From Chloroflexota bacterium (GTDB taxonomy: Bacteria > Chloroflexota > Chloroflexia > Chloroflexales > Roseiflexaceae): 54,762 nucleotides of DNA. Under the pieces are notes generated by a model. That model was not told the origin of the DNA and did no database searches. It worked only from the letters and a program-made list of their open reading frames with translations. The stretch lies in NCBI GenBank assembly GCA_013388755.1, contig JACAEQ010000081.1:1-54762 (forward strand). The letters are read 5' to 3'. The translations under genes were made by a program, and so were the position numbers. This document shows, piece by piece, positions 41,285 through 53,822 of the stretch. The number at the start of each line of letters is the position of its first letter. Position 1 is the stretch's first letter.

Positions 41285-41914
41285 TTACAGTTCGCGCCGT
41301 CCTTCAAGCGCCGAGCTCAGCGTGCCGGGATCGGCCCACTCAAGATCGCCGCCTGTGGGCAAACCGCGTGCCAGACGAGTTATGCGCACACCCAGCGGCG
41401 CAAGCGCCCGTTGCAAATGAAATGCGGTCGCTTCACCCTCAAGGTTGGGATTGGTTGCCAGAATCACCTCTTCCACGGGCTCGGTGCGCACCCGATCGAG
41501 CAGTTCATCAAAGTAGATATCCTCGCGGTTCATGCCCTCCAGCGGCGCAATACGACCATGCAGGACATGGTACAGCCCGCGAAAGACACCGGTTCGCTCA
41601 ATCGCCACGACATCGAGCGGCTCCTCCACAACACAGATCAGGCGCTGATCGCGCGCAGGGCTGGTGCATACGACACACAGTTCGCCCTGCGCAATAAAAT
41701 AACATCGTGCGCAAAAGTGAACCTGCTGCTTGAGCGCAATCAGCGCCTCTGCCAGCGAGCGTGCAGCTTCATCGGGTGCGCGCAGCATGAAGAACGTCAG
41801 GCGAGACGCGGTCTTCGGGCCGATGCCGGGCAAACGGCTGAACTCCTCGATCAGGCGGGCCACCGGCTCGGTGAGTATCTGCGTTTCGTTTGCCGTGTGC
41901 ATGGATCCTACCAT
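41285..41914 (-). CDS. recR: recombination protein RecR
   Basis: The 209-residue protein has the helix-hairpin-helix EEFSRLPGIGPKTASRL, the zinc finger CARCYFIAQGELCVVC and a Toprim domain (ICVVEEPLDVVAIERTG ... EVILATNPNLEGEATAFHL). RecR acts with RecO and RecF to load RecA at gaps. The ATG overlaps the ybaB stop (TAATG); an ATG four codons on is also possible. The dnaX-ybaB-recR order is the widely conserved one. Confidence 0.96.
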   Translation of the reverse strand: MVGSMHTANETQILTEPVARLIEEFSRLPGIGPKTASRLTFFMLRAPDEAARSLAEALIALKQQVHFCARCYFIAQGELCVVCTSPARDQRLICVVEEPLDVVAIERTGVFRGLYHVLHGRIAPLEGMNREDIYFDELLDRVRTEPVEEVILATNPNLEGEATAFHLQRALAPLGVRITRLARGLPTGGDLEWADPGTLSSALEGRREL

Positions 41915-42219
41915 TACAACATACCGGGCATCTTCATACCACCCGTCAGAGGGCCCAGGCGTTTCTCAGCCAGTTCCTGCGCCTTCTTGCTGGCATCATC
42001 GATCGCTGCCACGATCAGGTCCTGCAGCGTCTCGACATCGTCCGGGTCAACCACTTCCGGCGCCAGCTTGATGGCCTTGACTTCGCGATGGCCGTTCATT
42101 GTGACCGTCACATAGCTGCCGGCCGATCCTTCGACATTGGTATTGGCCAGTTCTTCCTGGATTCGCAGCATCTCCTTCTGCATCTGGCGGGCCATCTGCT
42201 CAAGCTGTCGCGGATTCAT
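41914..42219 (-). CDS. ybaB: nucleoid-associated protein YbaB/EbfC
   Basis: The 101-residue DNA-binding protein shows NPRQLEQMARQMQKEMLRIQ, the core GSYVTVTMNGHREVKAIKLA and DLIVAAIDDASKKAQELAE. GGAG six bases before the ATG sets the start. It begins about 10 bases after the dnaX stop and is coupled to recR. Confidence 0.95.
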   Translation of the reverse strand: MNPRQLEQMARQMQKEMLRIQEELANTNVEGSAGSYVTVTMNGHREVKAIKLAPEVVDPDDVETLQDLIVAAIDDASKKAQELAEKRLGPLTGGMKMPGML

Positions 42220-42229
42220 GGGTTGCTCC

Positions 42230-43948
42230 TTACTCTGTCTGGTCTTCCACACCAATAATGTCGGCATCGAAGATATTGAGGGCGGCCTTGATCAGCGGAT
42301 CTTTGCGTGTACTACGGATCTGTTCACGCAGCGCCCCGGGGTTTTCGCGCTGCTGGGCCTCAACCACGCACCGGATGCCATAATTCGCACCCATGTGTCT
42401 ACTCAACACACGCTCGATGGTCTGGCGCAGATTGGGTTGCTCCAGTTTGTTCATCAGCCATTCGCTCGGCGCTTCCAGCACCAGCACGCCATCCTTGACA
42501 TCGATCGGCCGTACGCCGCTATTGAGCAATGCTTGCAGCGTCTTGTCATACACGCGCACGTCACGAATAATATCGGGCCAGAGCCCCTCGATACGTTCCA
42601 GGGTCGCGGCGTCGGCATTGGCTGCAGCGACGCCATCGCCCTGCACTTCGGGAAGCACCACGCCGCCGGGCGCCGCAGATGGGCGCTGCTCGCTCGCCAG
42701 ATGGCGCAGGAATGGATCATCAACAGCCGGGGCAGCCTGCCGAACCGGATCAGGCACAGCTGCGGACGGTGCCACGTGCCCCTCCTGCGGTGCCGGCTCA
42801 ACTGCCGGGCGCGCCGGCGCACGCCTGGCGGCCACAACCGGGCGCGCCGGTATGGTGGCCGGCGCCGGCGCAACAATCGCCTCAACGATGGCCAGTTCAA
42901 GCGGCAGTTGACCATACGGGCTGACGCGTAACTGGTGATCCAGCTCGCTAAACAGCTTCACCCAGCGCAGCAGCGCGCCCAGATCGGCTGTGACGGCCTG
43001 GCGTTCAATCTGGGCCAGTTCGTCGTCGGCGGCATCAATCAATGAGCGATCGGCGCCGGCGCGCACCAGCATCAGCGCGCGCAGATGCTCGACCAGGTCG
43101 CGCACGAACTGGCGCAGATCGGCGCCGCTGGCGGCGACATCGGCCACTACCCGCAACGCACCTGGCAGGTCCATCGCCAGTAACGCATCAACAAGCGCCG
43201 CCACTTCCTGCATTTCGCTGGCGCCGAGCAGATTGCGCACCTGTTCGAGCGTGATGGTTGTTCCACCATACGCCATCAACTGGTCCAGTACGCCAAGTGC
43301 GTCACGCATACTGCCGGTCGCCGCGCGTGCGATCGTCTCGGCGACACCGGCCTCCAGCGCAAACCCTTCGCGCGACGCGACCTCGCGCAGATGAGTTGAC
43401 GTGGACGCCAGCGAGTGGCGGTGAAACACGAAGCGCTGACACCGTGACAGGATGGTTGCTGGAACCTTGTGCACTTCGGTGGTCGCCAGGATGAACAGCG
43501 CATGCGGTGGCGGCTCCTCAAGCGTCTTCAGCAGTGCATTGAAGGCCGCCGTTGAAAGCATATGCACTTCGTCAATGATGTAGACTTTGGTGCGTGCCAG
43601 CGCCGGGCGAAATTGGACACGCTCGATGATCTCGCGCGCATCCTCCACGCTGGTGTGCGATGCGGCATCCATTTCGATCACATCAACTGCACGGCCTTCG
43701 GCAACGGCGCGGCACGAGTCGCACTCGCCGCACGGGCGCTGTGGCTGCGGTGCGGTGCAGTTGACGGCCTTCGCCAGCAGCCGCGCGACCGTCGTCTTGC
43801 CGACGCCACGCGGCCCGGTAAACAAATAGGCATGCGCAACGCGCCCCTCTGCCAGCGCATTTCGCAGCGTCTGGACAATATGTTCCTGGCCGATCAACTC
43901 ATCGAACGTCTGGGATCGATAGCGTCGGTAGAGCGCCTGTGAGGCCAT
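42230..43948 (-). CDS. dnaX: DNA polymerase III subunit gamma/tau
   Basis: The 572-residue clamp-loader ATPase has the N-terminal RRYRSQTFDELIGQEHIVQTL, Walker A GPRGVGKTT, zinc site CGECDSCRAVAEG, Walker B IIDEVHML and the LSRCQRFVFH sensor region. The C-terminal half is an Ala/Pro-rich linker followed by a tau-like domain. I see no obvious slippery A-run for a programmed gamma frameshift. It heads the dnaX-ybaB-recR operon, with a clear promoter upstream. Confidence 0.96.
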   Translation of the reverse strand: MASQALYRRYRSQTFDELIGQEHIVQTLRNALAEGRVAHAYLFTGPRGVGKTTVARLLAKAVNCTAPQPQRPCGECDSCRAVAEGRAVDVIEMDAASHTSVEDAREIIERVQFRPALARTKVYIIDEVHMLSTAAFNALLKTLEEPPPHALFILATTEVHKVPATILSRCQRFVFHRHSLASTSTHLREVASREGFALEAGVAETIARAATGSMRDALGVLDQLMAYGGTTITLEQVRNLLGASEMQEVAALVDALLAMDLPGALRVVADVAASGADLRQFVRDLVEHLRALMLVRAGADRSLIDAADDELAQIERQAVTADLGALLRWVKLFSELDHQLRVSPYGQLPLELAIVEAIVAPAPATIPARPVVAARRAPARPAVEPAPQEGHVAPSAAVPDPVRQAAPAVDDPFLRHLASEQRPSAAPGGVVLPEVQGDGVAAANADAATLERIEGLWPDIIRDVRVYDKTLQALLNSGVRPIDVKDGVLVLEAPSEWLMNKLEQPNLRQTIERVLSRHMGANYGIRCVVEAQQRENPGALREQIRSTRKDPLIKAALNIFDADIIGVEDQTE

Positions 43949-45255: not shown

Positions 45256-47904
45256 TCAACCCGACCGATCGCCATCATCGGCCTGAGGCGCATCGAGCTT
45301 GCGCACCAGGCTCACGGCAGGGTCAATCGTCAGGTCGCCATGATCGGGGAAGCGCACCGTCAGGATTTCTCGCCCTCCCTCAATGCGGCTGGCAATGATC
45401 TCACCATCGCCGTAGGGCAGGCAAAAGATCCGTTCACCGCTGGCAAAACGTGGCTCGACGTCCGGCGCGCCAGAAGGCGCCGCTGGCGTCGCCCTGGTCT
45501 GCTGGTCACGCTGCGCTCGCTGGCGACGCAACCGGGCAATCAGCGCTGCTGCATCCGGCATACCGTCTTCATCTGTGCTGCCGGGCGGCGATGCGTTTGC
45601 CGGCGTCGTTCCACCATACGCAGGAGGCGCACCCTGTCGCTCTGCACCCGAAAGCGGCGTCTCTTGCACATCGCGGAACGGCAACGATTCCTGGCCTGCT
45701 GGCGACCTGTCTGTGGCGGCGGGCGCAGTACCAGAACCCTGATCGCGTGACCGGCGTTCTTCACGCCGCTGCGCGCGGCGTTCCTCGCGCGCCACTGGCG
45801 CGCCGCGCTGTTCGGCATGCGCACCTTCCGGCGATCGATCGCGGACCGAAGGCTGCAGCAGCGTCTCATCACGCGCCTGCGACGACTCGAGCGCCGTTCT
45901 TCCAAGCAAGGCCAGTAACCAGTCCTGATCGATACGACTCAATGGCTCAAGCAATGGATCAACGCGGCACGCGAGGGCCACATCATACGCCACGGGCAGC
46001 AATTCTTCGGCATGCTGGTAGATCCATCGGGCCAGGCCATTTCCACCCGGCTGCGCATCGACGAAGAAGAGCCGGCGCCGTTCGTGATCGTAGAACGGCG
46101 CCACGTCGGTAAAACTTGCCAGCACACGGAGCGGCAATGCCGCCGCCAGGCACCATCCCACAAACTGACCCAGGACCTGCAACCCGGTGGGCAGATCGAA
46201 CCAGCATGCCGGCGCGATCCAGCGGCTTTCGAGTGGTGCGCGCAGCGCAACGTCAGCCACCGCCGCGCCCGGTGCCGACTCGCGATATGCATAGATCGTC
46301 TCCTGAACGACCACACGCCCCCAGGCAACACGCCGTTCGCTGGCAAGCGAGCGTTCCTCACGCACTTCACGGATCGTCACATCACCGCGGCGGAGCGGAA
46401 ACGTCCGCCGGGAGCTGGTTTCCAGCCGTAGCGAAATAGCGCCGGATTCTTCATCACGCGTCACAACGCGCAGGCCACCCACACCAGGTGGAAGCGACGC
46501 ACCGGTGAATGCCCAGCGCTCATACAGCGTCGGGTCGAGCAACGCATGAATCCTCGGCTGCTCCGAACGCGCTACGATCGCATCACCACTGGCGGCCAGC
46601 ATACTGAATTCCGCGTATGGGTCCCCCTCACCAGCGGGAATCCAGCAGATATCATTGTCCGGCAGGGCAGTAAGTTGCCGGCTGGCCGCCATGCGCTCGA
46701 CGATCTCGGCACATCCCCAGGCATCAATCTCTACAGTTGACAGCGGCAGTTCGTTTGCGGCGCACAATACATGCTGCGCCATGGCATAGGCATTGGCCGG
46801 CGGCGTGGGCCACGCGCTGAGCGGGCCGCTGACCAGGGTCGAAACGTGGCGCGCCAGTGCCTGCTCGTGCGGTACCTCACCCAGCACAACGATCACCGCC
46901 TGATAGCCCGAGGCCAGCAGACGTTTCAGCGCGCTGATCGAGCCCGGAAAGCCGGCACAGACCAGGATCTGTGCCTGGCGCGCCTCCGGCCCCACCGTGA
47001 CGCCGGCCAGATCGCCAATCGCTGGCATGAGCACTGCGCGCTCCATCACACTACATGCCACATGGATGCGGTATGACTGCCGCTGCATAGCCGTCACCAG
47101 ATCGATCGTTTCACGCAGTCGTGTGGCGCCACCCTGCCATGCTGCGACGATGGTCGCCGGTCGTGGGCCATCGTCGGCACGCACAATGCGCCAGGAATGG
47201 CCAAGTAGCACCGCGAGCGCCGGCGCCGGATCAGCCAGTTCGAGGATCGTTGCCAGAAAGGCGGGAATGGCACCATGCGCAGTAGCAACCCGCTGCACGC
47301 GCAGCAGGAGATCGTCGAGGTGTGCGCCGGCGATGCCCGCATACCGGTGCGCATCGGGGATCGCGATCAGCCGTAACGCATTCCAGAGCCTGCTCCAGCC
47401 ACGCTCGTGATGGCGCAACAGGCGAGCATGGAGCGATTCGGGCGTGGTAATGACCAGGCGTGCAAACGGATCAACACGCGGCGCGCCGACAGACGTCGTA
47501 CTCATATGAAGCTGGCGCGGCAACGCCTGGTTCGCCGTGTCAAACGCCGCCTGCAGGGCCTGTCCGTCGCTCTCGTTCGCAACGATCAGCAGTGCGGCCG
47601 TATCGTGATCCTCCGCCAGAATTGCGCGCGTCAACAACTCGACGGTCGCCGCGACATCGGCGGATGATGCCTGAAGCGCGACCGGATCGCCACGCCGCAA
47701 TGCAGCCAGCGCCTGCGCCTGGTGCGGGCGGAACGGCTCACCACTGTACGCCAGCCATGCCTGCGCCAGCTGCGGATCGATCGGCAGATGGCTCACACGC
47801 TCGCCTGCTACGGCATCCAGTGAACGCAACATGAGCAGCGGGCCATGTTCACCGCGCCCGCGCTGCCGCGCAATCGCCTGGATAATGTCGCCAATGCTCT
47901 GCAT
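45256..47904 (-). CDS. inactive Hrq1/MrfA-like helicase-fold protein with UvrD-type tail
   Basis: The 882-residue protein follows the layout of DUF1998 (MrfA/Hrq1) helicases but lacks their motifs. FRPHQAQALAALRRGD (58-73) matches their Q-motif region. The Walker A position reads QASSADVAAT with no GKT. VITTPESLHARLLRHH matches motif Ia/Ib, and the DEAH position is AIPDAHRYAGIAGAH, with Pro183 and Asp184. The C-terminal DUF1998-like part retains VDAQPGGNGLARWIY but the four zinc cysteines that normally follow are gone. A charged disordered linker (EERRAQRREERRS) leads to GERIFCLPYGDGEIIAS ... VRFPDHGDLTIDP, like the C-terminal Tudor-like domain of PcrA/UvrD. It cannot hydrolyse ATP by this mechanism; a DNA or RNA polymerase scaffold role is inferred. 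It has its own promoter. Confidence 0.65.
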   Translation of the reverse strand: MQSIGDIIQAIARQRGRGEHGPLLMLRSLDAVAGERVSHLPIDPQLAQAWLAYSGEPFRPHQAQALAALRRGDPVALQASSADVAATVELLTRAILAEDHDTAALLIVANESDGQALQAAFDTANQALPRQLHMSTTSVGAPRVDPFARLVITTPESLHARLLRHHERGWSRLWNALRLIAIPDAHRYAGIAGAHLDDLLLRVQRVATAHGAIPAFLATILELADPAPALAVLLGHSWRIVRADDGPRPATIVAAWQGGATRLRETIDLVTAMQRQSYRIHVACSVMERAVLMPAIGDLAGVTVGPEARQAQILVCAGFPGSISALKRLLASGYQAVIVVLGEVPHEQALARHVSTLVSGPLSAWPTPPANAYAMAQHVLCAANELPLSTVEIDAWGCAEIVERMAASRQLTALPDNDICWIPAGEGDPYAEFSMLAASGDAIVARSEQPRIHALLDPTLYERWAFTGASLPPGVGGLRVVTRDEESGAISLRLETSSRRTFPLRRGDVTIREVREERSLASERRVAWGRVVVQETIYAYRESAPGAAVADVALRAPLESRWIAPACWFDLPTGLQVLGQFVGWCLAAALPLRVLASFTDVAPFYDHERRRLFFVDAQPGGNGLARWIYQHAEELLPVAYDVALACRVDPLLEPLSRIDQDWLLALLGRTALESSQARDETLLQPSVRDRSPEGAHAEQRGAPVAREERRAQRREERRSRDQGSGTAPAATDRSPAGQESLPFRDVQETPLSGAERQGAPPAYGGTTPANASPPGSTDEDGMPDAAALIARLRRQRAQRDQQTRATPAAPSGAPDVEPRFASGERIFCLPYGDGEIIASRIEGGREILTVRFPDHGDLTIDPAVSLVRKLDAPQADDGDRSG

Positions 47905-47986
47905 ACAGAGGGAGGCCCTTCGGGTCGCTCACGCTCCATTCACACCGCCGCCGTGCATCATGCTACGTAGCTGTTCATTGCGCACA

Positions 47987-48015
47987 AGTGTATCATGCCA
48001 GCCCCCCATAGGCAA
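47987..48015 (-). promoter_or_regulatory. sigma-70 promoter of helicase-like gene
   Basis: On the minus strand TTGCCT (48010-48015) and TACACT (47987-47992) are 17 bases apart and the latter carries an extended -10 TG (TGATACACT). The leader would be about 75 bases. Confidence 0.65.
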
Positions 48016-48071
48016 TGATGGGGGTGGGTTCATCAGCGCCGGCGCGACCATATGCCGCCTCGATGGCGGTA

Positions 48072-49028
48072 CTACGGCACCAGCAGCAGGCATTCGACCT
48101 GCGGATACGGGTCCGGGTCGTAGTCGACGATCCCGGGATCAGGAATGCCCTGGCCGCTGATTCGGCAGCGCAGGTCGCCATACTCATCGAGTCCGTCGGC
48201 CAGGAGCAGCACTTCACTGCCCGATTCCGCCTGTACGGTGAAGACCCAGGGCAATACGACTTCGCCATTGCGGCCGGGCACGCTCTCCCGGCCGTTGATC
48301 TCGTAGACGACATCCGCCCTCGGCTGGGTTCCTTCAACCAGCAGAGTCAGCGTGCGCAGCGCCGCGTCGGGCGTCGGTGTGGTCGTGCGCGTCGGTGTGG
48401 TCGTGCGCGTCGGTGTGGTGGTGGATACAACGAGCGTCGGCGTGGCCGGCGGGGCGGTTAGCACAAGCGTTGCAGTCGGCGTGGCCGGTGTCACGCCCGG
48501 CGCAGGCGTTGCGGTCGGCTGGAACGGAGTAGCGCTACGAACCGGCTGCTCGGCTGGTGGCGACGCCGGCGAGGCGGTGGGGGGCATTGCCGGCGGCAGC
48601 GTCGGTACGATGGCCGGCGGGGCGGTTGGCGCAATTGCCGGTGGTGCCGCTGGCGTGATTACCGGTGGCGTGAAGGTTATGGCAGGGGACGGCGTGGGCA
48701 CGGCTGTCGCAATCGCGAGCACAGTGGTCTCTGCGGGAGCAGGCGTGTCCGTGGGAGAGAGCGGCGGCGCGGTCGGTGACGGCGTGACCGGCGGGGGTGC
48801 CGCTGCTGGCGCAATCCCGGTGGCCACCGGCGCCAGCGTAACGATTGGCAGAGTTTCTGTCACCCGCCCTGCAGGCGTACGTGTGGCAGGCAGGTTGGTT
48901 GGGGCAGGAGCGACCGGCAGCGGCGGGCGCACAGCGAAACGCATTGCCAGGATCACGACGCCGGCGAGAAATGCAAGCGCAGCGGCCAGCAATGTGAGAT
49001 TCCATCTCTGTGGCGGTCGAGGCACCAT
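48072..49028 (-). CDS. membrane-anchored Pro/Thr-rich protein with MmpS-like domain
   Basis: The 318-residue protein has a short cytosolic start and one membrane helix (LTLLAAALAFLAGVVILAM, about 11-29). A low-complexity Pro/Thr/Ala region of about 180 residues follows, with tandem TPTRTT units. The C-terminal domain has VVYEINGRE, VVLPWVFTVQAESGSEVLLLA and GDLRCRISGQG ... VECLLL, a pattern like the beta-sandwich of MmpS-type proteins (VTYEV, NVSLPW, CKI, VSC). The two cysteines could pair. It is probably a surface-exposed protein of unknown function. The tandem DNA repeats in the linker at about 48352-48425 may change length. Confidence 0.7.
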   Translation of the reverse strand: MVPRPPQRWNLTLLAAALAFLAGVVILAMRFAVRPPLPVAPAPTNLPATRTPAGRVTETLPIVTLAPVATGIAPAAAPPPVTPSPTAPPLSPTDTPAPAETTVLAIATAVPTPSPAITFTPPVITPAAPPAIAPTAPPAIVPTLPPAMPPTASPASPPAEQPVRSATPFQPTATPAPGVTPATPTATLVLTAPPATPTLVVSTTTPTRTTTPTRTTTPTPDAALRTLTLLVEGTQPRADVVYEINGRESVPGRNGEVVLPWVFTVQAESGSEVLLLADGLDEYGDLRCRISGQGIPDPGIVDYDPDPYPQVECLLLVP

Positions 49029-50072: not shown

Positions 50073-53000
50073 CTACCGCACCGTAATCGCGCGCGCTTCG
50101 TTTCCGGACGGAGCGTAGTAGAACATCAGCAGCACCCCGCTCTCGGTTGTGGTGGCCGTTGAACCGGTCGCACCAATCGCCAGCGGCAGCGTACCACCGG
50201 CCGGCACCACGCCGGAGCCGACCGCGTCCACATAGCGTGGCGCGCCGATCACCGTGCTCATACCCTCAATGTAGCTCAACTCCGTCCCAGTAAAGTAGTT
50301 ATCGTAGACGTAAGCGCTCACGTCGATCTGCTGACCGGGCGACCGGACGCCAATCTGGTCGCCGCAGATCGTCACGACGGTGTTCGCGCTGTTGGTCGGA
50401 TGGTCAGTATAGAAGTACGCCGTCGCCGTGGGGGCCCCGACCGGAGCCACAAAGAAGAGATTCTGCCCGGTCGAAGCGAACGATCCCAGTTCCGCCGTGA
50501 AGCCGACATAATCCGGCCTCCCGTCGCGATTGGTATCGAACACCAGGTCAATCTCCACCGGGTAGTTCGAGTGAGTGATGCGCTGATGCGTATTGATCGC
50601 AAACTGGATCACCGGCTCGTCGAAATCACAGACCCCGGTTCCATCGAAGGCCCGCACACCGACATACCGCAGATCCATCGGCGGGGCATTCTGGCCCGCA
50701 CCCGGAGATGCGGTCACGAATGGATTCGTGCCGATCAGCGCGAAGGTCTCAACCGCTGTATCATTCGCTCCACTGTTCGACAGCATCGCAATTGCCGGAC
50801 CGCCGGCCAGATTGACACTGGCTGGAGCACGCACATGACCTGCTGCACGCGGCAGGATCTGCCACGGCATGGTCAGATCGTTGGCCGTTCCCGGCGCGTC
50901 AAGCGCCAGATACCCATCATACTCAGGGATCGTCAACGCATCACCATTGCCACCCGCCGGGCCTGAATTCAGCGTCCAGAGCGGTAGCTTCGTCGGGTCC
51001 ACCGTCAGCGACAGGACGAACGAGCGCTGGCCGTAGGGCGGAACCGTAATCGCCGCCGGGGCGTCTGGTGTCACGGCGCCGCTCGCTGCATCATCAGCGA
51101 AGCGGAAGCCGGGAACGATCGTATACGTCAGCGGCGTATGGCCATAGTTGCGCACCACCACCGTGCGGTGCAGTGTACGCGGGTTGCGGGTGACGTCGAT
51201 CATACCAAACGACAGCGCGCCACCGCGGCTAATGCTCTCCCAGGCCGACGCCTGCGCGGCGACCGCCCGATCAATACGCATTTCGCCGCCGCCGATGCGT
51301 GTGATTGGCGCCAGGCCACCACCAAAGATCGTCGGCTTGTTCAGAATGCTGGTCTCGGCCGTATTCATCAGCCGTGACTTCAGTTCCCACGGCGAGAGCT
51401 GCCAGTTCGTGGCGTTCATCAGCAATGCCGCCGCGCCCGAGACCATCGGCGCCGCACCGGAGGTGCCGCCAAACGGCTCGGTGCCACCACCGCTGCCGGC
51501 TACCGCCGAGACCGAAGCGCCAGGCGCGCCGATCTCTGGCTTGATGATCTGGCCGTACATCACCTGGTTACCGTAGAACATCTGGCCCATCGTCGGGCCA
51601 CGCGACGACGACGCAACGACACTGCCCACAATCGGTACGCCTGAGGCCGGGTCAATCGTCGCCACCTGGCCGGCTCGCGCCTTGAGGAGCGTGCCTGCCG
51701 CGCGCGTCGCCGTAAAGGTCGGCACGGTGACAGTGCCGCCTCCATAGCCAAACACCGGCGGCGTATCACCGGCAACATTATTGGCGACGATCACAGCAAC
51801 CGCGCCTGCCGCAGAACCATTGGCACCCTTGATGCTGACGTTGCATGTGCCGCGATCCACAAGTAGCACACGCCCGGTCAGCGAACCGGCCGGGAACGCT
51901 GTACAACCATTGAGATTACCGCCCGCCCCGTTGCCATACTGCAGCGGCCCGCTGATCAGCGTTGTCGGTACCGGCGCCCACGGCTGCGCCACCAGCCCGA
52001 TCGTCAACCCGCCAATCTGCACCGTATACACCGTATCGCTCGGCACCGCCGTCTGCGCCACCGAGAGTGCGCTGCGGGCCGCCGAAGGCGTACCGACAAT
52101 GTAGGGACGATCGGCGCTGTTGCCGGCCGAGGCCACCACCAGAATACCAAGCGGCGTGATATTGTCGACCAGGATCGACGAATCGTCATCATAGTTCTGG
52201 CCATACGATGAGCCAAGCGACATATTGACGATGTGCACATGGTCGTCGGTCTTGCCATCGCCATTCGGGTCAGCTGCGTACTCAAGGCCTTGCAGAATAG
52301 CAATGCCGCTGCATGCAGACGAGACCGCCGAGCAGACCTTGACGGCGTAAAGGTCAACCTTCGGCGCAACGCCACTACCGGCGGTGACATTATCCTCGCT
52401 GAGCCCGGCGCCAAGCGCCTGGTCACCCGTACCGCCCACCAGCCCGAAGGCATAGGCGGTGTAAACCTTCCCGGCTGCCAGGGTCACTCCCGGGATCGGC
52501 AATACCACCGTCGTCGTGCCTGCCAGACGCACCTCAAGGTTATACGTCCCGGCAGGAACCGGCGTATACGTGCCAACTTCACCAAACGCAACATTCGCGA
52601 AGATCACCGGCCCGCCACCGGCCACGGCGACATCCACTGCCGGCGCATTGGGCGACAGGTGAATGAAGCGGACGTGAGCGTTACCGGCAGCCGGGGCGCT
52701 ATTGTCGTCCACCAGCACCAGCGGAGCGATGCTCGCAAGTTGACCGGTCGCCGCAACCGTGTAATCCTTCCCGGCCGCGACGGTCACATTCGCATCAATC
52801 ACCACCGGGGTCGTCGCACCTGCCGGCACTACCTGGATGTTATAGGTTCCGGGAGGCAACAGCGCATAATCACTGATCGCACGGAAGGGCACATTCGCGA
52901 AGGCCACTCCACCGTTCACCAGGATGTCAACTGCCGGCGCGTCAGGCGAGGCATGCACCGCGCGAACACGCGCCCGCTCCGGGTCAGGAATGGCGTTACC

Positions 53001-53822
53001 ACCGATAATATCGGCAACATGCGTGCCATGACCTTCGTAATCAATCGGATCGGGGTCGGGCTGCAGCGGATCATTGAAGCCGCCCGGCCCATTCGGCCAC
53101 ACCTCACCGACAAAGTCGTACCCCTCAACCACGCGCGCCGTAGGGAAGAGGCCATCGCGGGTCGTAGTGCGCGGATCGGACGGATTGGCGCCATAGGCCG
53201 CCCGGTAGGCCGCCAGGGTACCGACGCCGCCCAGTTTCGCATGGGTATAGTCAATACCGCTGTCGAGCACGGCCACCCGCACATCCTCGCCCTTGAACGC
53301 CAGTTCCTGAACGGCGCGTGTTGCGCCGATATAGGGCACGGTCTCGGCCAGATCGCGCTCATAGTTCACAACGGCGCTGATGCGCGAAATCTCGCCATCG
53401 CGCGCCAGCGTCGGCAACGCGGCGGCGTCGACATTCATGATCACCGCATTAAGGCCAATCCGCAGGCGCGCATATTCGGTCGCAGCCGGATCGATCGCGC
53501 GAATACGGGCGACAACCCGATCCTGTTGCTGCCTGATGCGCTCACCTTGCGCGAGTTGCGCCGCACCTTCGGCAACTGTCGCGACCGGTGCCTCGCGCAA
53601 ACGTATGACCACCTGCCGGCGGCCAGTCGCGCCTTCCAGGCCGGGAGACAGCACAGCGCGCGGATTCGCGATCTGTGCCGGCGTATCCAGGCGTAACCGG
53701 TCAATGCGGGCCGGATCGATTCGGGGCGGGCTTACCTGCGCCGCTGCCGGCGCGACAAGCGCAAACGCCAGCAGAAGCATCATCACCACGGTCAGGTATC
53801 GTAACGTTGCATGTCGACTCAT
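50073..53822 (-). CDS. secreted S8 (subtilisin) peptidase with inserted DUF4397 pair
   Basis: The 1249-residue protein has a signal peptide (VVMMLLLAFALVAPAAAQ), an I9-like propeptide region and a subtilisin domain with Asp187 (VAVLDSGIDYTH), His265 (EGHGTHVAD), Asn568 (VVASAGNSADRP) and Ser788 (GGTSGAAPMVSG). Two DUF4397 beta-domains (about 284-465; VRAVHASPDAPAVDILV and VRFIHLSPNAPAVDVAV) are inserted between the His motif and the strand GVAPKVDLYAVKVC. A PA-like domain (about 605-725) lies between Asn and Ser. The 400 or so residues after the Ser are beta-rich. It is probably an extracellular protease; whether the tandem inserts control access or bind a surface is unknown. Confidence 0.92.
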   Translation of the reverse strand: MSRHATLRYLTVVMMLLLAFALVAPAAAQVSPPRIDPARIDRLRLDTPAQIANPRAVLSPGLEGATGRRQVVIRLREAPVATVAEGAAQLAQGERIRQQQDRVVARIRAIDPAATEYARLRIGLNAVIMNVDAAALPTLARDGEISRISAVVNYERDLAETVPYIGATRAVQELAFKGEDVRVAVLDSGIDYTHAKLGGVGTLAAYRAAYGANPSDPRTTTRDGLFPTARVVEGYDFVGEVWPNGPGGFNDPLQPDPDPIDYEGHGTHVADIIGGNAIPDPERARVRAVHASPDAPAVDILVNGGVAFANVPFRAISDYALLPPGTYNIQVVPAGATTPVVIDANVTVAAGKDYTVAATGQLASIAPLVLVDDNSAPAAGNAHVRFIHLSPNAPAVDVAVAGGGPVIFANVAFGEVGTYTPVPAGTYNLEVRLAGTTTVVLPIPGVTLAAGKVYTAYAFGLVGGTGDQALGAGLSEDNVTAGSGVAPKVDLYAVKVCSAVSSACSGIAILQGLEYAADPNGDGKTDDHVHIVNMSLGSSYGQNYDDDSSILVDNITPLGILVVASAGNSADRPYIVGTPSAARSALSVAQTAVPSDTVYTVQIGGLTIGLVAQPWAPVPTTLISGPLQYGNGAGGNLNGCTAFPAGSLTGRVLLVDRGTCNVSIKGANGSAAGAVAVIVANNVAGDTPPVFGYGGGTVTVPTFTATRAAGTLLKARAGQVATIDPASGVPIVGSVVASSSRGPTMGQMFYGNQVMYGQIIKPEIGAPGASVSAVAGSGGGTEPFGGTSGAAPMVSGAAALLMNATNWQLSPWELKSRLMNTAETSILNKPTIFGGGLAPITRIGGGEMRIDRAVAAQASAWESISRGGALSFGMIDVTRNPRTLHRTVVVRNYGHTPLTYTIVPGFRFADDAASGAVTPDAPAAITVPPYGQRSFVLSLTVDPTKLPLWTLNSGPAGGNGDALTIPEYDGYLALDAPGTANDLTMPWQILPRAAGHVRAPASVNLAGGPAIAMLSNSGANDTAVETFALIGTNPFVTASPGAGQNAPPMDLRYVGVRAFDGTGVCDFDEPVIQFAINTHQRITHSNYPVEIDLVFDTNRDGRPDYVGFTAELGSFASTGQNLFFVAPVGAPTATAYFYTDHPTNSANTVVTICGDQIGVRSPGQQIDVSAYVYDNYFTGTELSYIEGMSTVIGAPRYVDAVGSGVVPAGGTLPLAIGATGSTATTTESGVLLMFYYAPSGNEARAITVR

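Follow-up and report, generated by a model that had tools for sequence, protein, structure and literature searches.

The 54,762-nucleotide stretch of Roseiflexaceae DNA analysed here (the window) carries an open reading frame whose product resembles a DUF1998 helicase with its catalytic motifs replaced, which raises the question of whether the gene is decaying or encodes a retained protein and, if retained, what a helicase fold without a motor might do. The frame is intact from the ATG at 47904 to the stop at 45256 on the minus strand (882 codons, 0 internal stops), as an earlier note on this DNA had described it, and the position of the ATG matches the start in most orthologues. The window's genome is 5.08 Mb in size and 100% complete, and the named relatives matched are two MAGs, one assigned to Roseiflexus and the other to an uncultured Chloroflexi.

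Homology, predicted fold and replacement of motor residues

A phmmer search of the PDB with the 882-residue protein returned a sole match, MrfA/YprA from B. subtilis (6znp, E = 6.4e-22). The window protein matches Pfam MZB at 30.2 bits (cut-off 24.2) and the NCBIfam model DECH_helic (TIGR03817) at E = 2.2e-36 and 125.4 bits, far under the family cut-off of 874; for the Hrq1 winged-helix model PF22982 it reaches 20 bits against a cut-off of 27, and 47 of 51 family members match that model at E values up to 0.1. The AlphaFold2 model, built with the 51 family members as input, predicts a helicase fold with high confidence (mean pLDDT 86.4, 677 residues scoring at least 90). The top four Foldseek matches of this model are MrfA chains (E = 1e-38 to 1e-27), and VIA-align against MrfA gave Z scores of 33.3 and 33.2 over 569 and 601 aligned residues, with the next family at 23.6. 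The match spans residues 1–668 and keeps the RecA1–RecA2–winged helix–OB/CON–MZB architecture, OB/CON and the other domain names being taken from PMC12458937. The homology between the window ORF and the repair helicase MrfA/YprA goes far beyond chance, and the MrfA-type fold proposed in the earlier note was borne out by structure prediction.

Motif columns were compared in an alignment of 52 family members and 24 active relatives; the RecA1 motifs are covered by 22 of the latter. The Walker A lysine is present in 0/52 pseudohelicases and 22/22 active proteins (Ala85 in the window, within SSADVAAT), the DEAH aspartate in 0/52 versus 22/22, and the last arginine of motif VI in 0/52 versus 24/24 (Y334 in the window). 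The DEAH column, where the window reads PDAH, holds Glu in 2 and His in 38 of the 52 members; at the SAT motif (ILE in the window) Ser is found in 4 and Thr in 1, and the motif V Asp is kept in 4 (E307 in the window). Neither a GK[ST] near motif I nor a DExH/D near motif II was found among the 52 members, so that the loss of all catalytic motifs claimed for this one protein, including the replaced Walker A lysine and the PDAH, holds for its orthologues too. The claim that the C-terminal zinc cysteines are missing stands for the second MZB pair, which is absent from all 52 members, and fails for the first position, where 22/52 members, the window protein among them (C646), retain Cys.

Residues outside the ATP site show the opposite pattern. 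R164 is found in 49/52 family members versus 2/22 active proteins and W174 in 52/52 versus 0/22, and together with W50, W396, W562 and W662 these are the near-invariant residues specific to the family. By entropy within the family, motif I is variable (percentile 77), and residues 154–163 and 378–388 are among the most conserved (percentiles 15–25), which indicates that constraint has gone from the ATP site and not from the fold. The ATPase activity of SF2 helicases depends on the motifs lost here; we therefore infer that it is absent, and the window protein is almost certainly a dead helicase. Its core has a pI of ~6.0 (family mean 6.2; active relatives 7.4, whole proteins), and this lack of basic character is what chiefly argues against the pseudohelicase binding nucleic acid. 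As a separate observation, 2 of the 51 members in the alignment still match Pfam DEAD (best E = 1.1e-9), though the Walker A Lys and DEAH Asp are absent in all.

Table 1. Features of the pseudohelicase gene, in window coordinates; residue bounds marked ~ are approximate.
Feature	Residues	Position	Strand	Basis
Complete ORF, almost certainly ATPase-dead MrfA/YprA-type helicase fold with C-terminal Tudor-like domain	882 aa	45256..47904	-	
RecA1-like domain, folded without Walker A/B	~36-247	47164..47799	-	AF2 pLDDT mostly >90, MrfA match
Motif I (Walker A) remnant SADVAA, Lys replaced by Ala85	81-86	47647..47664	-	Alignment with active relatives
Kept, elaborated stretch TPESLHARLLRHHERGWSRLW, including R164 and W174	154-174	47383..47445	-	Alignment columns
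Motif II (DEAH) remnant PDAH	183-186	47347..47358	-	Alignment columns
Motif III (SAT) remnant ILE	220-222	47239..47247	-	Alignment columns
RecA2-like domain	~250-365	46810..47157	-	AF2 model, MrfA match
Motif V remnant TVGPEA, motif V Asp = E307	303-308	46981..46998	-	Alignment
Motif VI (QQAGRAGR) remnant KRLLASGY, arginine fingers gone	327-334	46903..46926	-	Alignment
Winged-helix region, Hrq1/MrfA type	~366-445	46570..46809	-	PF22982 (window under cut-off)
Beta-rich OB/CON-like region of MrfA	~446-586	46147..46569	-	AF2 model, MrfA match
MZB (DUF1998) fold remnant, without second zinc Cys pair	587-668	45901..46146	-	Pfam MZB, Cys columns
Disordered linker, with short predicted helix 707-718 inside	672-784	45553..45891	-	pLDDT mostly <50
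Short conserved helix N-terminal to Tudor domain	785-804	45493..45552	-	AF2 model
Tudor-like domain, PcrA/UvrD C-terminal type	820-872	45289..45447	-	Profile and fold matches

Distribution and selection across the order

A search for the pseudohelicase gave matches in 58 of 60 relatives. The 52 orthologues form a single clade (FastTree support 0.997) on a stem of 1.44 substitutions per site, with active helicases of other Chloroflexota families as its neighbours in the tree. The order carrying the family would be Chloroflexales in the GTDB sense, comprising families f1 to f4. In the class sample, every order genome more than 90% complete has the pseudohelicase, and completeness is 71–86% in the four listed genomes of the order that lack it. 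No pseudohelicase was found outside the order in the class and phylum samples; matches there are weaker (E = 1e-37 at best, versus 1e-66 or lower for members spanning the whole query region), and those inspected have intact motifs wherever these are covered. In the main-text passages searched, a YprA-family survey from 2025 (PMC12458937) makes no mention of a dead branch of this kind.

Selection on the core was estimated by the Nei–Gojobori method from 12 close pairs, giving dN/dS of 0.03–0.19 versus 0.09–0.12 for the active paralogue (three pairs), and the tail gave 0.00–0.13 except in genus g3. The pseudohelicase is ancient and under purifying selection, and the earlier view that it was selected rather than decayed is supported by the 52-member clade, the dN/dS values and the retention across the order. 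A decaying pseudogene has next to no chance of being the right description: the motif losses and a divergence faster than that of the active paralogue (~62% versus ~78% identity to Roseiflexus-type relatives) are all that speaks for it, whereas frames are open across the order and the fold is confidently predicted. A recent pseudogene is ruled out by the orthologues, the dN/dS and the tree. Neither of the two outcomes that the earlier note had named as refuting, a predicted structure with no helicase fold and close orthologues in which Walker A and DEAH are intact, was seen.

Two local departures were seen. Tails of genus g3 (L019 and L021) appear relaxed, with a dN/dS of 0.80 in a single pair. 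In another genome (G055, contig 1), ~25 kb separates the N-terminal portion of the gene from the C-terminal one (L143 and L144, at 171619–173280 and 198048–198761) and the middle is absent, through rearrangement or misassembly.

The Tudor-like tail and the gene neighbourhood

The C-terminal tail was compared with known domains by both profile and fold. Searched against the PDB, a profile of 37 tails matched domains of UvrD, PcrA and CarD (best E = 0.0012); searched against the host genome, it ranked the tail of the host's own PcrA/UvrD (E = 3.7e-6) second, behind the pseudohelicase tail itself. Modelled alone, the tail forms a five-stranded barrel (pLDDT 81) whose seven top Foldseek matches are without exception C-terminal Tudor domains of PcrA/UvrD; the same domains make up the four top VIA-align matches (Z = 8.5 to 7.6), with CarD and Mfd ranking below them. 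Since such Z scores can arise by chance at the tail's size, the Tudor assignment rests on the agreement of sequence and fold. Pfam PF21196 is reached by 6 of the 37 tails, the window's own not among them. Four active helicases of other Chloroflexota families (L130–L133) bear a small C-terminal domain at the position of the Tudor tail, which hhalign relates to the tail with a probability of 3%; the dead lineage may have added its tail, as the earlier note has it, or may have inherited it.

PcrA binding to RNA polymerase requires H681, W684, K712 and L714 (PMC5397179). When the tails are aligned to the host PcrA tail, the H681 position is Cys and the K712 position is non-basic (L, I, V, T or A) in 37/37, the W684 position is aromatic in 34/37 and the L714 position is aliphatic. 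The PcrA/UvrD-like tail of the earlier note is upheld as a fold, and its suggested contact with RNA polymerase is not implied, as two of the four required residues are replaced in every tail. A surface that is re-specified yet conserved suggests a different or modified partner. The PcrA Tudor domain, tethered by a disordered linker, binds both UvrB and RNA polymerase, and its docking motif is [VIL]-D-x-x-T-G-E-[VIL]-[VILT] (PMC8318588). Host UvrB contains FDPLTGEVL, which fits this motif save for the first residue. The strict motif is absent from host RpoB, where loose matches are LSTGEL and RDLRTGELI; the motif is also missing from some other RpoB (PMC8318588).

Clustering of neighbours by BLAST at 20 loci revealed no order-wide conserved neighbourhood. 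An SSB gene lies directly downstream on the same strand in 7/7 genomes examined of genus g8 (L050, L053, L052, L028, L041, L040 and L037; also L128 and L129), identified at L128 by PF00436 (E = 7e-38); the pseudohelicases of this genus are ~28–37% identical to the window's. The adjacency may be passive, as a comparison of two 20-kb loci places it within a longer shared gene-order block. The earlier note had also credited the gene with its own promoter; none was found in a sigma-70 consensus scan of 47850–48250, a type of scan that says little in this phylum. An anti-phage YprA system (DISARM, Druantia, Dpd or ARMADA) was considered and is unsupported by defence helicase models, the sole PADLOC match being a weak one to SngC (E = 3.4e-5 across 99 residues).

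Elsewhere in the window, dnaX (clamp loader) and then ybaB (41914–43948, minus) share the strand of the pseudohelicase gene and lie downstream of it, with a convergent DUF4349 gene in between. A subtilase S8 protein of 1249 residues is encoded at 50073–53822 (minus), with DUF4397 stretches and a PA domain inside the span of the peptidase match.

Proposed role and comparison with known systems

Loss of the motor in a protein that carries a docking module makes a motorless DNA-binding adaptor the most likely reading, and we give even chances to the specific form in which an ATPase-dead, nucleic-acid-binding protein uses its Tudor tail to dock to a protein of repair or transcription. A MrfA/YprA-type SF2 repair helicase in the order's ancestor would have lost the zinc site and the ability to bind and hydrolyse ATP, and would have retained the two-RecA, winged-helix, OB/CON and MZB architecture. 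The core may still hold on to a strand or junction of nucleic acid, though it would not translocate, and the linker-tethered Tudor domain is predicted to dock it to a DNA repair or transcription partner, for which UvrB would be somewhat favoured over RNA polymerase. The pseudohelicase would then hold this partner on a DNA intermediate, or mark the intermediate, motor-free. The MrfA homology and fold, the family-wide motif loss, the single clade, the dN/dS and the retention across the order support this reading, as do the PcrA/UvrD-like tail, the near-docking motif in UvrB, the SSB neighbour in genus g8 and the Deinococcus radiodurans PriA precedent; besides the non-basic core, the replacement of H681 and K712, the lack of an order-wide neighbourhood and the possibly passive SSB adjacency count against it. 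The earlier proposal of a scaffold in repair or transcription-coupled repair is a plausible candidate role. More tentatively, it is possible that a one-time conversion at the order's root yielded a dead MrfA body that acts as a clamp on, or a sensor of, a strand of DNA or RNA where an excision-repair or transcription complex has stalled, with the re-specified PcrA-type Tudor domain recruiting a partner, possibly UvrB.

Other roles would place the protein differently. It seems unlikely to be a transcription-coupled factor bound to RNA polymerase, as the earlier note had proposed, with its tail contacting the beta subunit in the manner of PcrA/UvrD or Mfd and its dead body on nearby nucleic acid; the tail fold, which matches the UvrD C-terminal domain on the polymerase lobe (7egs) and then CarD and Mfd, and the side chains kept at the W684 and L714 positions are consistent with such a factor, whereas the residues at the H681 and K712 positions and a host RpoB without the strict docking motif argue against it, the latter tempered by the RpoB proteins that lack the motif. 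A scaffold for proteins only, with nucleic acid binding also lost and an unrelated role, would suit the slightly acidic core and the degraded motifs III, V and VI, and is improbable given that the stretch 154–174 and the start of the winged helix are among the best conserved parts.

RecC and AddB provide the precedent of a dead helicase fold serving as a sensor subunit, reading DNA sequence or structure inside a helicase or nuclease complex. A fold kept with family-specific W50, R164, W174, W396, W562 and W662 suggests a new binding surface of that kind, but no nuclease or helicase gene consistently adjoins the pseudohelicase among the clustered neighbours and the protein has a tethered docking domain of its own, so we hold a sensor subunit to be improbable as well. 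Some genomes, including the window's own, have both the pseudohelicase and an active MrfA relative, as would be needed if the pseudohelicase were an allosteric partner of the cell's active MrfA-type helicase. Full-length active relatives, scored as TIGR03817-type matches of more than 400 bits, were not found in family f4, most of family f3 and genus g8, lineages that still retain the pseudohelicase; with so many genomes carrying it alone, it is not an obligate partner of active MrfA, and we disfavour the allosteric role as highly improbable.

A motorless adaptor would be of wider interest, in that the family shows that a whole SF2 motor can be discarded while the scaffold stays under purifying selection, and pairs a dead SF2 scaffold with a docking domain from another repair helicase. 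Strand engagement and translocation, usually mixed in repair helicases, could be told apart experimentally in this family.

Among characterized proteins, the MrfA/YprA (DUF1998) SF2 helicase of B. subtilis (6znp, 6znq and 6zns) shares domain order and fold over the homologous region, whereas the pseudohelicase lacks the Walker A Lys, the DEAH Asp, the last motif VI Arg and a complete zinc site, and has a linker and Tudor tail that MrfA lacks. With the catalytic and zinc features of MrfA gone, it is not filed as a MrfA helicase, though it descends from MrfA/YprA. The nearest active branch consists of MrfA-like proteins from other Chloroflexota families (L130–L135; joint clade support 1.0), which, unlike the pseudohelicase, keep the covered motifs and the zinc cysteines intact. 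The tail shares with the PcrA/UvrD C-terminal Tudor domains (5dma, 7egs, 7egt and 6yi2) both its barrel and its tethering by a disordered linker C-terminal to a helicase fold; it differs in being joined to a dead SF2-type core and not to an SF1 motor, and in the residues that replace H681 and K712. Lineage-wide conserved bacterial pseudohelicases are rarely described, and the sole biochemically shown case that we found is PriA of D. radiodurans, which has neither ATPase nor unwinding activity, yet keeps DNA binding and contact with DnaB (PMC4504706). PriA belongs to a different family and has a known role, whereas the MrfA-family protein described here is known from sequence and models; in both, a bacterial repair helicase fold has lost its ATPase within a lineage and a functional protein has been kept, and the D. 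radiodurans PriA pseudohelicase is the closest working analogue.
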